DNA of 64,000 nucleotides from a bacterium BMS3Abin14 (GTDB taxonomy: Bacteria > BMS3Abin14), in the NCBI GenBank assembly GCA_002897695.1, contig BDTG01000043.1, positions 112,054 through 176,053 of the forward strand. Direction: 5' to 3'. Shown piece after piece: positions 50,652-58,331 of this stretch. Below the pieces are notes generated by a model. It was not told the origin of the DNA, ran no database searches, and saw nothing but the letters and a program-made list of their open reading frames with translations. Both the position numbers and the translations under genes were made by a program. The number at the start of each line of letters is the position of its first letter. The stretch's first letter is position 1.

Positions 50652-51123
50652 CTTCAACCTTCCAGGCTCTACATTTGACCGGAACCGGATCGTATGAACT
50701 ATTCCTTTACATCCTACAACATAAAAAAAAAGGATCAGCACAAAAACGAGTCCGTCAATGTTAAACCGGATTTCACGCGTGTTGCCTGTTGTAGCTTCGC
50801 TTCACGATTACCCCCCTCCCTCGAGGGGAGGGGATGGGGGAGGGTGGTATATGTTATTCACCCCCACCTCTGTCCTCCCCCCTCAAGGGGGAGGAAGGTT
50901 TAAGGTTTTATTCACTTACGATGTTTGCCCTATCCCCTGTATCCCCCCACCTGCCACGTCGAAGCAACCGAAATGTGTGACGAAGACGGGTCCCTGTTAA
51001 ATCCTGCCTTTAGATGCAGTGAGCTACGTATTTCTATAATGACCCGGTATCGTGAGATTTTGATGAACTTTCTTTGGGAATATTGATTTGGGGAGGTTGT
51101 CGGTACGAACGGAGGAAAAGAAT
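50652..51123. other. Intergenic gap with GC-rich hairpin pair
   Basis: Gap of 472 bases. It contains the G/C-rich inverted-repeat pair at 50811-50897. The rest shows no gene or promoter that I can defend. Confidence 0.5.
50811..50897. repeat. Paired GC-rich intergenic hairpins
   Basis: First hairpin CCCCTCCCTCGAGGGGAGGG (about 50813-50832) and second CTCCCCCCTCAAGGGGGAG (about 50875-50893). They are separated by GGGTG and CACCC segments that could also pair with each other. This looks like a dispersed bacterial intergenic palindromic element. It has no T-tract. Confidence 0.55.
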
Positions 51124-51539
51124 ATGAAGTCAGCAAATTTCCCAAAACGAAACACTTTCGGGCAATCCCTGATTATTTTCGTCGCCATACTGTTCATTCC
51201 ACTGACAGCCCCGGCCGACTGGGATTTTTCAAAGCACAGCATCCCAGTCGAGGGAATCCGGGGGGGCGGCCCCCCAAGGGACGGGATACCGGCCCTTTTT
51301 AACCCAAAATACCTGAGCGCCAGGGAGTCCGACAAACTCCTCAAACCTGATGAGCGAGTGCTGGGAGTGACCATTAACGGGGTCTCCAGGGCCTACCCTA
51401 TCCGGATCATGTCCTGGCACGAACTGGTCAACGACGAGATCAACGGTGTCCCCTACCTCGTGAGCTGGAACCCATCGTGGTCTACTGGTTCGTGTGGAAG
51501 GGAATACACTCCGACTCGGGGCTTTACAGGCCAGAATAG
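51124..51539 (+). pseudogene. DUF3179 protein remnant with large internal deletion
   Basis: ATG at 51124 after GGAGGAAAAG opens a normal DUF3179 N terminus: a signal sequence, FSKHSIPVEGIRGGGPPRDG, VLGVTINGVSRAYPIRIMSW and HELVNDEINGVPYLVSW. At about 51465 the expected cysteine-containing middle is gone. Sequence resumes in another frame with EPIVVYWFVWKGIHSDSG and ends in LYRPE at a TAG (51537-51539), which is the C-terminal pattern of the same family. Roughly 200 or more residues are missing. The end overlaps the convergent sensor kinase gene by 16 bases. The remnant is not expected to make a working protein. Confidence 0.75.
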
Positions 51540-53437
51540 TTCAAGGGGGCCTCCGTCTTATCTCCTTCCAGCACCTCCCTGACTTTGGCGCCCAGGGCCT
51601 GTACGGCGAACGGTTTCTGAATGAACTGTATGCCTTCATCCACCACACCGCGATGGGTGATAACGTCTTCTGTGTAGCCGGACATGTAAAGCACTTTCAA
51701 GCCCGGGTATAAAGCAGACGCCTGGGTAAACAGATCCCTGCCGTTCATCCCTGGCATGACCACGTCCGTCAGCAGCAGGTGTACCGAACTCTCGTGGTCC
51801 TCCAGAACCCGAAGCGCCTCGCTTCCGCTTTCGGCGGAAAGAACACGGTAGCCAAACTGCTCGAGTATGGCACGACTGACCTCACGAACATGTTCGTTGT
51901 CCTCAACCAGCAGGATGGTCTCCCAGCCGTGCAGGTCGGTGGGGGCCGTTTTTTCAACAGTTGCCACCCCGGCGTCGACTTTTCCGGTAACAGGCAAATA
52001 GATCTTGAAGGTCGTGCCCTTGAAGGGTTCGCTGTAGAACCAGATGCTGCCGCCGTGCTGCCTGACAATGCCGTGAACCGTGGCCAGCCCCAGGCCCGTG
52101 CCGCCCTCTCCTTTGGTGGTGAAGAACGGCTCGAAGATGTGCTTGCGGACCTCATCATCCATGCCGCATCCCGTATCGCTGACGACCAGCATGACGTACT
52201 CACCCGGTTCCACTTCCGGGTGAGTCGCCGCGTATTCTTCGTCAAGATCAGCAAGCGTGGTCTCGATCGTCAATGTGCCGCCACCCGGCATGGCTTCAGC
52301 AGCGTTGACCGCCAGGTTCATGATCACCTGCTCGATCTGGCCGAGGTCCGCCATTACGCCATGAATATCGGGCGACAGGAGGACCTTGATCTCGATGTCT
52401 TCCCGGATAGTGCGCCGGAGTAATTTTTCAAAGCCCTCAACAGCTTTGCTAAGATCAATAGTCCTGTACTCCAGGGTCTGCTTGCGGCCGAATGCCAGGA
52501 GCCGGCTCACCAGGTCCCGGGCCCGAAATCCCGCATCCATGATTCCGTCTATGAATTTCAATCGCGCGTCGTCGGGAGCTAAATTGTCCCGAAGCATCTC
52601 ACCGTAGCCAAGGATGGGGATGAGAAGGTTGTTCAGATCGTGGGCCACGCCGCCGGCAAGCCGGCCTACAGCCTCTACCTTCTGTGCCTGAAGGTATTGC
52701 TCCTCCATTCTAGCCTTTTCTTCCTCGACCTGCTTGCGGGTCTGGATTTCATCCTGCAGCTCATCGAAGGTGGTTTTCAGTCCAAGACGCATCGAGTTGA
52801 TGGCCGAAACGATCCGGTCAATCTCGTCAGGATTCTGGGGAGAAGTCTTTTTCTTCTCTAAAAGCAGTTCCTTCTCAAGACCGTCGATTCCTATCTGTTT
52901 CACATATGCGGCGATGTCGGATAGATGGCGTGTAAACATAAACTGGAACAGGAAGTATATGGAAAAGGTGACAAGGAAGACCATCATTACCGTGTAGAAT
53001 AACCCCACCTTCACATGCCCCCACAACTCCTCGAATACCCCGTTTCTCGAGATGTCTACTTTCAGGATTCCCAATCGTATCGTCTTGCCCCCGTAAGTAT
53101 AGGTGAGGGGGAACTCACCCCGCATGGCATCTCCCGCTTCGATGCTGCCTATTTCCATGATCACCCGGCCCTTGTCTTCTATCAACACATGACGCAGGTG
53201 GGATATGTTCAGGAGTCCCTGCATGGCGGTCCTGACGGTCTTCTCGTCCATGACCCACAGATTTTCTCTGATGACCGGTAGCTGGGTTATCTTAATTTCC
53301 TTAAAGGTATTTTCAATATCGCTCATCGCCTTTCTGTAATCCAACCATGCCCTGACGGCTGTTATCAAAAGTGCGGCGATCAAACTGACTATGAGAACAA
53401 CGATGAAAAGCCGGAAAGCGATGGAATTTTTGGCCAA
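51524..53437 (-). CDS. Hybrid sensor histidine kinase with receiver domain
   Basis: Of 637 residues, 1-165 are a two-helix membrane sensor with a periplasmic part. A linker with coiled coil (about 205-255) leads to the kinase: AGGVAHDLNNLLIPILGYGE (phospho-His near 266), GCGMDDEVRKHIFEPFFTTK and GGTGLGLATVHGIVRQHGG. The C-terminal receiver has ILLVEDNEHVREV, LLTDVVMPGMNG (Asp) and FIQKPFAV. The probable TTG start overlaps the upstream binding-protein gene by 49 bases, so sensor and binding protein are tightly linked. Confidence 0.88.
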   Translation of the reverse strand: MAKNSIAFRLFIVVLIVSLIAALLITAVRAWLDYRKAMSDIENTFKEIKITQLPVIRENLWVMDEKTVRTAMQGLLNISHLRHVLIEDKGRVIMEIGSIEAGDAMRGEFPLTYTYGGKTIRLGILKVDISRNGVFEELWGHVKVGLFYTVMMVFLVTFSIYFLFQFMFTRHLSDIAAYVKQIGIDGLEKELLLEKKKTSPQNPDEIDRIVSAINSMRLGLKTTFDELQDEIQTRKQVEEEKARMEEQYLQAQKVEAVGRLAGGVAHDLNNLLIPILGYGEMLRDNLAPDDARLKFIDGIMDAGFRARDLVSRLLAFGRKQTLEYRTIDLSKAVEGFEKLLRRTIREDIEIKVLLSPDIHGVMADLGQIEQVIMNLAVNAAEAMPGGGTLTIETTLADLDEEYAATHPEVEPGEYVMLVVSDTGCGMDDEVRKHIFEPFFTTKGEGGTGLGLATVHGIVRQHGGSIWFYSEPFKGTTFKIYLPVTGKVDAGVATVEKTAPTDLHGWETILLVEDNEHVREVSRAILEQFGYRVLSAESGSEALRVLEDHESSVHLLLTDVVMPGMNGRDLFTQASALYPGLKVLYMSGYTEDVITHRGVVDEGIQFIQKPFAVQALGAKVREVLEGDKTEAPLNYSGL

Positions 53438-54138: not shown

Positions 54139-54395
54139 GATTTCCCCCAAAATTCTCTTCGTACTTTCCCCTATGCTACATTTCTCTGGCCCGGCAGGAT
54201 AGTTATTTTGCGGACATGGCGTTAAAACTTTTGCTGTTTCCGACAGATCCTCGCCGAAAAGTTCCGCAAAAGGCTCACCCAGAAGATCTGGATGAAAATA
54301 AAGCGGTTTCACTCCGAGCCATCGGGAGCATGTCGTGAACAATAGCACATTTTCGACACACGGTCCTTATCTGAAAATCCGGCTTGCTGTTTAAC

Positions 54396-54435
54396 TTCGA
54401 TGGACTCGCAAAAAGTCCATCAACGCGCCCGGGCA
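54396..54435 (-). repeat. Hairpin repeat, copy 4
   Basis: On the minus strand GGGCGCGTTGATGGACT is followed by a seven-base loop and AGTCCATCG. The arms GATGGACT/AGTCCATC are perfect. It lies between the thioredoxin-like gene and the binding-protein gene. Same family as 6990, 26703 and 31291. Confidence 0.65.
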
Positions 54436-54446
54436 GGGCGCCCAGA

Positions 54447-54746
54447 TCAATGGAGTTTTCTTATGACCTTCCTCAATGCTGCCACGGAAGGAGTATTGGC
54501 GAGTCCTCCGGACTCGTTCTCGTACATCCGTCAGGAAAATCCGGAGATCTCGGATGGGAAGAGATCGACGCCGTCGAGCATGATCGTCGGAGAGCCCCTC
54601 AAGCCAAGCTTTTCAGCCGCCTCGTCGGCGATACGACGGTAGTTCACCTCGGCCTTGAGACCCTCGGCTGCCAGAGCGTCAGGGATGTTCTTCCGCAGGA
54701 CCACTTCGGACCCACAGCCCATTGAAAAGTAGCAGTCAATTTTCAT
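54447..54746 (-). CDS. Thioredoxin-like protein with in-frame TGA, candidate selenoprotein
   Basis: Reading from ATG at 54746, codons 1-71 give a small thioredoxin-fold protein: MKIDCYFSMGCGSEVVLRKN, then LGLRGSPTIMLDGVDLFP and EISGFS. Codon 72 is TGA (54533-54531). Reading on in the same frame gives RMYENESGGLANTPSVAALR and KVIRKLH before a normal TGA at 54449-54447, a total of 99 residues. As I recall, related proteins have Cys at this place (GFSC-RxY). A hairpin (CGAGTCC, loop GGA, GGACTCG) begins its loop 22 nt after the TGA. The gene ends the leftward mer cluster. Alternatively it is a 71-residue protein truncated by a nonsense mutation. Confidence 0.68.
54500..54516 (-). promoter_or_regulatory. 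Putative bacterial SECIS hairpin
   Basis: Seven-base perfect arms CGAGTCC and GGACTCG enclose loop GGA. Counting from the base after the TGA at 54531-54533, the loop is at nt 22-24. Known bacterial SECIS elements have the apical loop about 16-37 nt after the UGA with a G among its first two bases, which is met. The hairpin lies inside the coding frame, as required. Confidence 0.6.
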
Positions 54747-54809
54747 GTCAACGTCTCCTACTGCCTTACTGGGGTTATTAAATAAATGAGCACCTGGATG
54801 TGGACCAAG

Positions 54810-55080
54810 TCACTCTTTCATGGTTCCGAGGTCCCTTTTTCCGAATCTCGGTGACCTGGGAGGCCTTTCCCTCTTGAAGGATTCGAAAGGGAGTCCGATC
54901 AGCCGGAGTATGCGGTTATCCTCGGGACTTTGAAATCGGCCGACCCCGATGGTTATCGCTGACTGCGGGACGTTCAGCACCAGGCTCCTGTTTATGGCGT
55001 CCCACCACCGGAAGATGACCGAGTAGTTGGAGTTCAGCTCCGAGCGAACCACCGAGTGGTGTACCCCGTGCATCCTGGGC
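54810..55080 (-). pseudogene. C-terminal fragment of a fatty-acid hydroxylase/sterol desaturase
   Basis: Begins in mid-gene with LTPRMHGVHHSVVRSELNSN, the last histidine box of the membrane hydroxylase family, and continues YSVIFRWWDAINRSLVL and IGVGRFQSPEDNRILRLIGL to a natural-looking end. The three upstream histidine boxes and all membrane helices are missing. The fragment is fused to the DsrE-like remnant at about 55080. Confidence 0.65.
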
Positions 55081-55180
55081 GTCAACCAGGACCTTGACCG
55101 TGTAGCCCTTCTCGAGCGCAGCCCAGATGACATTGTAAACGACGCAAATCTGTCAGTATCAGGATTCCGTACCGGTTCAT
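55081..55180 (-). pseudogene. N-terminal fragment of a DsrE-like protein
   Basis: Strong AGGAGGTAACTC precedes ATG at 55180, ten bases after the merA stop, and the frame opens MNRYGILILTDLR. A shift then changes frame. The continuing frame reads VYNVIWAALEKGYTVKVLVD, typical of DsrE/DsrF-like folds, before the break into the hydroxylase fragment. It was probably the gene after merA in the ancestral operon (inference). Confidence 0.55.
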
Positions 55181-56651: not shown

Positions 56652-56972
56652 CTAACTTCCCGCAGCCGGCTCTCTCTGGATGACCTTTCCCTTGAACCCG
56701 CTTTCCTCGACGGCCTTTTCCAGAACCTCTTCAGTAACGCTTTCATCCACAGTCACCCACGCCTTCTTTTCCTTGAGTGAGACATCCACCTCTTTTACGC
56801 CCTCGACCCCTGACAGGGACCGTTTCACCGCAATGGCGCAAAGGCCTCACGTCATACCCTTGATATCAAGGGTGACCTTCTGATCCGCCGCGTGGGCCGG
56901 ATGAGGGGTCGCCAGGGTTACAACAAGCGCCAACGCAAAAAACGCAATCGTAAAAAAACCGTATTTCGACAT
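56652..56972 (-). CDS. merP: MerP-like periplasmic mercury-binding protein with in-frame TGA, candidate selenoprotein
   Basis: ATG at 56972 has AGGAG six bases upstream. A signal peptide (FFTIAFFALALVVTLATPHPAHA) leads into an HMA domain: KVTLDIKGMT, then TGA at codon 42 (56849-56847), then GLCAIAVKRSLSGVEGVKEV and DVSLKEKKAWVTVDESV, to a TAG at 56654-56652. The total is 106 residues. The canonical metal site is GMTCxxC, so the TGA sits exactly on the first Cys and Cys45 is kept. The rest of the domain is intact in one frame, which argues against decay. Sec would give a GMT-Sec-GLC site. A nonsense mutation or sequencing error is the alternative. Ordinary gene finders will miss it. Confidence 0.72.
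56805..56846 (-). promoter_or_regulatory. Possible SECIS hairpins after the merP TGA
   Basis: Two competing foldings are visible by eye. (1) Immediately after TGA, GGCC-TTT-G-CGCC, loop ATTGC, GGTG-AAA-C-GGTC, about 11 pairs with two bulges; its loop is a little close to the TGA. (2) GGTCCC, loop TGTCA, GGGGTC, six pairs including two G-T, with the loop at nt 32-36 and G as second loop base, which fits the usual distance window. No energies were computed. Confidence 0.35.
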
Positions 56973-57009: not shown

Positions 57010-57160
57010 TTATCCCTGAAATCGGTTCCTGGTACCTGGTTCATGCTTCCAGAAATAAAGGGTCTGGGATCTGGGGTCTAGACCCTACAATTCTTCGACA
57101 CTTCGATACCTTGATACTCCCAAACCTCAAACCTCAAACCTCAAACCAGCCCCATTCCCC
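57010..57160. repeat. Short-word patchwork tract E, inside the mer operon
   Basis: The merT-merP gap holds GGTTCCTGGTACCTGG, GGTCTGGGATCTGGGG, CTTCGACACTTCGATACC and three CTCAAAC repeats. All these words also occur in tracts B-D in housekeeping regions of the window. So the mer operon carries the host chromosome's own repeat style. Confidence 0.65.
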
Positions 57161-57525
57161 TACCCCGCAAACCATGCGACGACTTTCAGGTAAGAGACAG
57201 AAATAATCATGGCCACCGCCGCCGTCCAGAAGATCATCCTGGCGATCCTCCTTGTGCGAAAATCCGCTTCGCAGCTGCAGTCCGCTTTCTTCAGGTAAAG
57301 CTTCCAGAAGGAGTACCCCAGCATCAGGAAAGCAGCGCCCAGCATATACGGCCTGAATGGGCTAAGTGCCGCGAACTTGCTCAAAAACCCGACGGATGTC
57401 CCGAAGATAATAAAGATAACAGGCCCTATGCAGCAGGACGCTGCCAACAGGGCGGCAACAATGGATCCGAAACTGGACAGGTTTTCTTTTCTCAGGACCA
57501 CCCTGTTCTCGTTTACGGTGTTCAT
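57160..57525 (-). CDS. merT: MerT-like mercuric ion inner-membrane transporter
   Basis: Membrane protein of 121 residues with three hydrophobic segments. The first helix carries the vicinal pair LLAASCCIGPVIFIIFG (Cys31, Cys32), and a cytoplasmic-side pair is in KKADCSCEAD (Cys83, Cys85). These match the four-cysteine layout of MerT, which takes Hg(II) from MerP and passes it inward to MerA. It overlaps the upstream thioredoxin-like gene by four bases (ATGA). Confidence 0.82.
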   Translation of the reverse strand: MNTVNENRVVLRKENLSSFGSIVAALLAASCCIGPVIFIIFGTSVGFLSKFAALSPFRPYMLGAAFLMLGYSFWKLYLKKADCSCEADFRTRRIARMIFWTAAVAMIISVSYLKVVAWFAG

Positions 57526-57791
57526 TTTATGGGCTTTCCAATTCCCGCCGCCTTCAACTCGTCTCTTGACGGTCCTCTGCCAGTGCAGCAGCCTGCCAAT
57601 TGTCCGTCAACAATGATGGCCGGTACCGAACGGACACCAAGCACTCTGGCCCTCTTTGCTATCTCAGGTTCATTCATGTCCAGGATCGAAACATCGCAGG
57701 AAGGACATTCCATCTCCTGAACCAGACTGACCGCCTCATCACAGGCCGGACACCCGGCACTGAAAATCTCGATTTTTCTTTTTCCAGCCAT
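57522..57791 (-). CDS. CPAC thioredoxin/glutaredoxin-like protein of the mer operon
   Basis: Eighty-nine residues with a thioredoxin fold: KIEIFSAGCPACDEAVSLVQ, a second pair in EMECPSCDVSILDM, the cis-Pro region GVRSVPAIIVDGQLAG and a third pair (GCCTGRG). Six cysteines in so short a protein suggest metal or thiol exchange. Placed between merR and merT, it may reduce or relay Hg-thiol adducts (inference). It is a normal TGA-free reading frame. Confidence 0.72.
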   Translation of the reverse strand: MAGKRKIEIFSAGCPACDEAVSLVQEMECPSCDVSILDMNEPEIAKRARVLGVRSVPAIIVDGQLAGCCTGRGPSRDELKAAGIGKPIK

Positions 57792-57831: not shown

Positions 57832-58248
57832 TTATTCTGAACGATGCCATTCCGGCTCCAAAGCCTCCAATATGGGACATTCTCCATCTGGTCCGTCGAC
57901 GGCACAAGCGCCGACCAGTTCACCCAGGGCCTTTTCTATCCCCTGCAGGGATCGGATCTTTGCCGACACATTTCTGCGTTTTTCCTCTGCCATTAGCCTG
58001 ATGTCCTCGCATGTAGTTCTTGGATCAAGCCTGAGATTCAGAAGTTCATGTATTTCTTTAAGTGTAAAGCCTAATTCTTTAGCACGCTTGATAAATTGAA
58101 TCCTGATTACAGTGTTTAGTGGATACTGCCGATAACCCGATTCGGATCGAGGAGGCTCGTCGATCAAACCGCTTTTCTCGTAGAAACGGACAGTCTCCAC
58201 CCCGATGCCGGACTGTCTGGATACCTTTCCTATGGTCATCGACTTCAT
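57832..58248 (-). CDS. merR: MerR mercury-responsive regulator
   Basis: MerR-family activator/repressor of 138 residues from ATG at 58248 (GAAGGGG upstream). The helix-turn-helix begins MTIGKVSRQSGIGVETVRFY and continues SESGYRQYPLN and KELGFTLKEIHELL. The three Hg-binding cysteines of classic MerR are kept: Cys80 (RTTCED), Cys115 (LVGACAV) and Cys124 (GECPIL), which marks it as Hg(II)-responsive rather than a zinc or copper homologue. It is the first gene of the operon and should autoregulate from the promoter at 58332-58362. Confidence 0.87.
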   Translation of the reverse strand: MKSMTIGKVSRQSGIGVETVRFYEKSGLIDEPPRSESGYRQYPLNTVIRIQFIKRAKELGFTLKEIHELLNLRLDPRTTCEDIRLMAEEKRRNVSAKIRSLQGIEKALGELVGACAVDGPDGECPILEALEPEWHRSE

Positions 58249-58331
58249 CTTTTGCCCCTTCAATCCCTGTACAAGGACTACCCTTTCCAAATGCCGCATG
58301 GAAAGGTCACTAATACCCGACTTTGTCTCTA

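Follow-up and report, generated by a model that had tools for sequence, protein, structure and literature searches.

The closest described relative of the protein analyzed here is the "hypothetical protein DF", which Xiao and Zhang described with deep-Sep in 2025 (PMC12013277). They reported it as a selenoprotein of Desulfosediminicola flagellatus alone, without a conserved domain and without TGA-containing homologues in any other bacterium, and it is also listed in a 2026 review (PMC13188914). The same review lists SaoT and other Sao selenoproteins (NF040730 and others), as well as the thioredoxin-like selenoproteins Sec.1 and Sec.2 of PF13192, for which the listed motifs are CxU and UxC (PMC13188914).

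We analyzed a gene in a 64,000-nucleotide stretch of the genome of the bacterium BMS3Abin14 (contig BDTG01000043.1; the whole stretch is called the window), for which an earlier note, made from the DNA letters alone, had proposed a thioredoxin-like protein with an in-frame TGA at codon 72 and a SECIS-like hairpin downstream. The hmmscan results showed one NCBIfam match, NF049942 "DF family (seleno)protein", with 44.5 bits in comparison to a curated cut-off of 70, which is thus not reached; all members of the clade that were scanned likewise score below this cut-off, the best of six having an E-value of 3.7e-13. Residues 4-93 match model positions 2-95, the invariant columns C11, GSP and C/U-R are held in common, and Sec and Cys are exchanged at the same column, while the clade of the window protein differs from the DF family in being Sec-only in 56 genes, in its predicted thioredoxin fold and in its occurrence in Hg/As operons. 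By sequence comparison, the window protein falls into a Sec-only clade, the sister group of the Cys-containing DF family, and the branch joining this clade has a modest support of 0.74.

A fusion of MerB with a Cys-type DF domain occurs in Actinomycetota, as in the Gordonia protein WP_006438313.1 (DF domain at 4-97 and MerB at 204-328). This protein and similar Actinomycetota plasmid proteins carry the same domain, with LSCRLYPSDTGRLDGAPSVAALRAALR at the Sec region, but have Cys in place of Sec, form one polypeptide with MerB and have no matching stop codon. SaoT is similarly a thioredoxin-like selenoprotein beside a MerB-like lyase (SaoL) and an efflux permease (SaoE), and SaoE resembles the permease beside the window clade (NF040736, 142 bits, below cut-off); the window protein, however, does not match the SaoT model, and SaoT has a UxxC motif whereas C11 and U72 are separate here. 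With Sec.1 and Sec.2 the window protein shares a Thioredoxin_3-like fold, Sec and small size, but its Sec lies 61 residues after Cys11. Finally, Escherichia coli thioredoxin has the fold that is predicted for the window protein (Z 7.4 over 80 residues), the cis-Pro and a Cys at the N-terminal active-site position, in contrast to which the window protein lacks CxxC and its presumed second ligand, Sec72, lies behind strand 4.

The features of the locus are collected in Table 1. The coordinates proposed for the gene were correct, and the strand, which the earlier note had not given (nor had it mentioned the mercury operon or the published DF family), is minus. Read from 54746 to 54447, the translation is MKIDCYFSMGCGSEVVLRKNIPDALAAEGLKAEVNYRRIADEAAEKLGLRGSPTIMLDGVDLFPSEISGFS-[TGA]-RMYENESGGLANTPSVAALRKVIRKLH-[TGA], so that the frame does run on for 27 codons beyond the TGA to a natural stop, as had been described; that this stop is also a TGA had been passed over. 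The homology to relatives ends at this second in-frame TGA, which is the gene's own stop. An open reading frame on the plus strand (54384-54725) was rejected as a mere antisense shadow of the selenoprotein gene.

Table 1. Features of the selenoprotein gene and of the mercury operon in the window (window coordinates)
Feature	Position	Strand	Evidence or remark
Thioredoxin-like selenoprotein gene, 99 residues	54447..54746	minus	ATG at 54746, natural stop TGA 54449-54447; end-to-end conservation in 56 distinct relatives
Sec codon, TGA (codon 72)	54531..54533	minus	TGA in 56/56 distinct close relatives; Cys in distant ones
Cys11 codon, presumed partner of Sec72	54714..54716	minus	Cys in 57/58 loci, Sec (TGA) in L128
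Pro53 codon, GSP motif; thioredoxin cis-Pro position by fold inference	54588..54590	minus	GSP in 58/58 loci and in Cys relatives
Likely ribosome-binding site, AGGAG	54755..54759	minus	8 nt 5' of ATG; sequence
bSECIS hairpin	54500..54516	minus	arms 54516-54510 and 54506-54500, loop GGA 54509-54507
merA, mercury(II) reductase, 467 aa	55191..56594	minus	TIGR02053 496 bits, over cut-off; upstream of selenoprotein gene
merP-like HMA protein, in-frame TGA in metal motif (GMT-U-GLC)	56652..56972	minus	TGA 56849-56847
merT, mercuric ion transporter	57160..57525	minus	PF02411 67 bits, above gathering score
Thioredoxin_3 / ArsE-like small thioredoxin	57522..57791	minus	PF13192 34 bits, above gathering score
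merR regulator	57832..58299	minus	TIGR02051 134 bits, best family, below cut-off 150.85

Bacterial SECIS (bSECIS) elements are described as having a loop of 3-9 nt with a G within its first two positions, a stem of 4-16 bp, a spacing of 16-37 nt and an MFE of -7.5 or lower (PMC13188914). The hairpin of the window gene, CGAGTCC-GGA-GGACTCG, forms 7 perfect pairs at -11.1 kcal/mol, with 14 nt from the TGA to the start of the stem and 21 nt to the start of the loop, and it agrees with all of these published rules; the hairpin was found as the earlier note described it. The hairpin alone is nonetheless weak evidence and near chance, because a stem of equal or greater length, by these rules, follows 158 of the 2274 TGA trinucleotides in the window (6.9%), and as a stand-alone proof of Sec it was therefore dropped. 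The same frequency, together with the fact that 27 open codons are not rare by chance, is what can be said for the TGA being an ordinary stop with a functional product of 71 residues. An Rfam scan of the window gave no match to a SECIS family, and this was not counted against the SECIS reading, because such silence is expected for bSECIS elements.

The case for the TGA and the hairpin is lifted far beyond chance by the comparison of relatives, which is the decisive part of this sequence-based argument. When 386 genomes were searched with the NF049942 model, the window gene was recovered together with many Cys forms, a gene from a different genus of the family (L019) and a gene from a different phylum (L045); both L019 and L045 have TGA at the same column as the window gene. 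A further genome of the same family (G010; L021/L052) also has the gene; its TGA is in the corresponding position and is preceded by a frameshift of one base. A single-sequence scan of named genomes gave no match, while an alignment of the first three sequences, searched against the named genomes, gave three more loci, all with TGA, in MAGs titled Nitrospirae and Thermodesulfovibrionales. A model of six sequences matched 57 of the 395 genomes searched in the phylum to which L045 belongs, nearly all of the matches having exactly one in-frame TGA; since this model had C at the Sec column and did not halt at stops, a Cys form would have reached as good a score. Matches without TGA had E-values of 1e-9 or worse, except for pieces of a frameshifted gene (G617). 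The searches of the "class" and the "phylum" around the window's genome take in the same 12 genomes, and the gene is absent from the genome of the same genus (G001).

Altogether 56 distinct homologous genes were compared, of which one comes from a sister genus and almost all the rest from a single other phylum (Nitrospirota in the record titles); every one of them has TGA at the codon-72 column and none has Cys, while distant relatives have Cys at this column and align at full length (hhalign profile-profile probability 99.5%, E 1.6e-22, 99 columns). The expectation that the TGA stands at a conserved Cys position was thus borne out. The matches by tblastn to plasmids were all below 60% identity, and those inspected were Cys forms, alone or fused to MerB. 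The identity of the window protein with L019 is 71% after the TGA in comparison to 63% before it, and with L045 it is 54% in comparison to 56%. Homologues ending at residue 71 had been named as evidence against the selenocysteine reading, yet all homologues continue, with similar identity on either side of the TGA. Protein-level conservation that is as strong after the TGA as before it across 56 distinct genes, the invariance of R73, G80 and P86, and Cys relatives that run straight through all argue against an ordinary stop at codon 72, which we regard as very improbable.

Two loci show variations on the Sec column. One (L128, G743:C16) has two in-frame TGAs, at the Cys11 and Sec72 columns, and is a natural double-Sec form. 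The other (L053/L037, G296:C316) is a distant DF-type domain with an independent TGA at the Sec column (GIA-U-RAYETGG), the frame of which runs on into an ArsC-like low-molecular-weight phosphatase (APRHILFLCVQNSARSQLAEG); from its sequence this may be a fusion selenoprotein of DF and arsenate reductase.

The stability and covariation of the hairpin, which the earlier note had suggested for checking, also came out in favor of a functional element. Each of the five inner stem pairs (columns 19-33 to 23-29 from the TGA) is present in 91% to 96% of the 57 sequences, while the outer pair varies between C-G, U-A, A-U and U-G; for the first seven sequences, 91.8% of cells pair in comparison to at most 49% in slid controls. 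As the protein motif ESGRL could by itself yield part of this pairing, synonymous sites were checked. At Glu78 the codon is GAG in 44 of 44 genes, in comparison to 232 of the 488 Glu codons at other places in these genes (p 5e-14); at Leu82 it is CTC in 49 of 55, in comparison to 92 of 442 (p 1e-23); and the codon of Arg81 has A or G as its third base in 51 of 51, in comparison to 279 of 353. These Fisher p-values are too small, because the sequences share ancestry and their independence is overstated, but the direction is clear. The constrained synonymous bases of Glu78, Arg81 and Leu82 are stem bases. Compensatory changes and frozen synonymous sites together indicate that the hairpin is conserved beyond coding constraint.

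This constraint at the RNA level also bears on the reading of codon 72 as a sequencing error or as a mark of a pseudogene. Frameshifts do occur in two relatives (L052 and L145), and the stretch just upstream of the window gene looks broken, but the recurrence of this TGA in 56 distinct genes of dozens of genomes, together with a constrained hairpin, leaves this reading hardly any probability. The frameshift of L052 (G010:C25, 112-387, minus) lies just before the TGA with the rest intact, and is either an assembly error or a sign of a pseudogene.

The machinery for selenocysteine, the absence of which would have counted against the proposal, is present in the window's genome, where selB (361 bits), selA (575 bits), selD (355 bits) and a tRNA-Sec (72.7 bits, over the gathering score) were all found, selA adjoining selB on contig C29. 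The selD gene of this genome (G000:C8:25519-26442, plus strand, locus L057) has an in-frame TGA of its own and encodes a Sec-containing SelD. With a threshold of E <= 1e-60, selB was detected in 51 of the 54 genomes that carry the gene and in 16 of the 32 relatives that lack it; for genomes with a completeness of 90% or more, the numbers were 44 of 45 and 14 of 28, respectively. A reassigned code, with TGA read as another amino acid such as Trp or Gly, would likewise leave the in-frame TGA open, but the family has Cys at this column and neither Trp nor Gly, the genome has the full Sec machinery, the gene itself stops at TGA and other genes of the window run to normal stops, so that this reading is equally remote. 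In general, the column comparison, the frozen codons of the hairpin and the Sec machinery support the proposed reading, and on this comparative evidence we consider it nearly certain that TGA codon 72 is decoded as selenocysteine, under the direction of the downstream hairpin and by means of the Sec machinery that this genome encodes.

The description of the protein as thioredoxin-like agrees with an AlphaFold2 model built on four aligned sequences (pLDDT 90.6), the best solved structural matches of which are thioredoxin-fold proteins; thioredoxins match with Z about 8 at 2.5-3 A over 79-80 residues, and KaiB and SelW relatives, which are also thioredoxin-like, match at similar Z. On this model the protein is predicted to have a thioredoxin fold. 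The PF13192 (Thioredoxin_3) score was 16.6 bits in comparison to a gathering score of 24.8 and is thus below the threshold. Invariant or nearly so in the 58 loci are Cys11 (replaced by Sec in one), Gly51-Ser52-Pro53, Sec72-Arg73, Gly80 and Pro86. A CxxC motif was not found at the site, which reads C11-G-S-E14 with no second Cys there, and Cys5 was rejected as an essential site residue, being present in 52 of 58 loci and absent in 6. The double-Sec form suggests, by its sequence, that residues 11 and 72 work together.

The selenoprotein gene closes the minus-strand series merR–trx–merT–merP(Sec)–merA, on the same strand and in the same cluster. The MerP-like protein scored 72 bits with NF041115 "metal-binding (seleno)protein" and 65 bits with MerP, both below cut-off, and it is probably the other of the two TGA cases of which the earlier note spoke. 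Its TGA stands for the first Cys of the metal motif, the same UxxC form being found in L052, while in the MerP-like proteins of L096 and L104 the TGA takes the place of the second Cys (GMTCQLU and GMVCELU, respectively). Between merA and the selenoprotein gene, the minus strand of 54810-55180 contains DsrE-like pieces in several frames (MNRYGILILTD..., VVYNVIWAALEKGYTVKVLVDAQ...); the piece tested gave no Pfam match, and by its sequence the stretch looks like a frameshifted gene. Elsewhere in the window, a DUF3179 protein at 51088-51582 (plus strand; PF11376, 79 bits) covers only the first 66 of 292 model positions and then breaks off; DUF3179 is a known Sec-containing family.

Among the seed families tested, an Hg or As neighbor was found in 22 of the 58 distinct loci, and any metal role is thus guilt by association. 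MerA, MerT or MerB is nearby in 8 loci, with the order MerA-DF-MerB in L100, L102 and L103, MerR-DF-MerB in L094 and MerT-MerP(Sec)-DF in L052, and membership of a mer operon (same strand and cluster) was also seen in L097 and L102. In another 14 loci the neighbor is an ArsP_1 permease or ACR3, in most cases accompanied by ArsR and an ArsE-type thioredoxin, and yet another 13 have a CMD/AhpD-type (carboxymuconolactone-decarboxylase-type) gene nearby, which is upstream on the same strand in 12. Antisense clusters of open reading frames in this neighborhood analysis were discarded as shadows. The mer and ars neighbors and the fusion of DF to MerB point to soft-metal detoxification, while the CMD/AhpD-type neighbors point to thiol redox chemistry.

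In the mechanism that we propose, Cys11, at the N-terminal active-site Cys position of thioredoxins, and Sec72, behind the fourth strand, would form one thiol/selenol site beside cis-Pro53. This site would bind a soft metal ion or organometal, which would be Hg(II) or an organomercurial in the operon of the window and arsenic species in the arsP/acr3 clusters, and the bound metal would be handed to the operon enzymes (MerB to MerA), or else the metal-blocked thiols of those enzymes would be reduced. Selenium would be a stronger or faster-exchanging ligand for soft metals, and a better leaving group, than sulphur. Taken as a whole, a Sec protein with a Cys11-Sec72 site for soft metals or thiols is a likely explanation. 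Between its two branches, direct relay of the metal is preferred to the restoring of metal-blocked thiols, at close to an even call from the sequence evidence. In its most specific form, the proposal is of a Sec-obligate shuttle with a thioredoxin fold, in which Cys11 and Sec72 would take Hg(II) or organomercury from MerB (or As species) and pass it to MerA or an efflux pump, and which in the window would be paired with a second selenoprotein, the MerP-like carrier; this we put forward tentatively, at a little under an even chance.

A selenoprotein with a purely thiol redox function, glutaredoxin- or peroxiredoxin-like, which would repair oxidised or metal-modified thiols and neither bind nor relay the metal directly, is the main alternative to the shuttle. 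It is consistent with the thioredoxin fold, with the CMD/AhpD-type neighbors and with the fact that most selenoproteins are redox enzymes (PMC13188914), but it leaves aside the recurrent merA/merB/merT and arsP/acr3 neighbors and the DF-MerB fusion, and the C-G-S-E site is not the CxxC motif, so that we regard it as possible but somewhat doubtful.

A literature search, the coverage of which was incomplete so that an earlier mention is possible, found no link of the DF clade to mercury operons or MerB. What was already known is DF as a selenoprotein in one organism, and what appears new from these sequences is a large Sec-only clade that fails the curated cut-off. Annotation pipelines probably truncate or drop the genes of this clade at the TGA, because the curated model misses it. 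The clade extends the DF selenoprotein from the one reported organism to dozens of genomes, and it gives the DF family a predicted fold, a putative active site and a role that can be tested. Mercury is bound more tightly by selenium than by sulphur and is known to poison selenoenzymes; an operon with selenocysteine in its own mercury-handling proteins would reverse that relation, and if the shuttle reading is true, selenium chemistry would be built into mercury detoxification.
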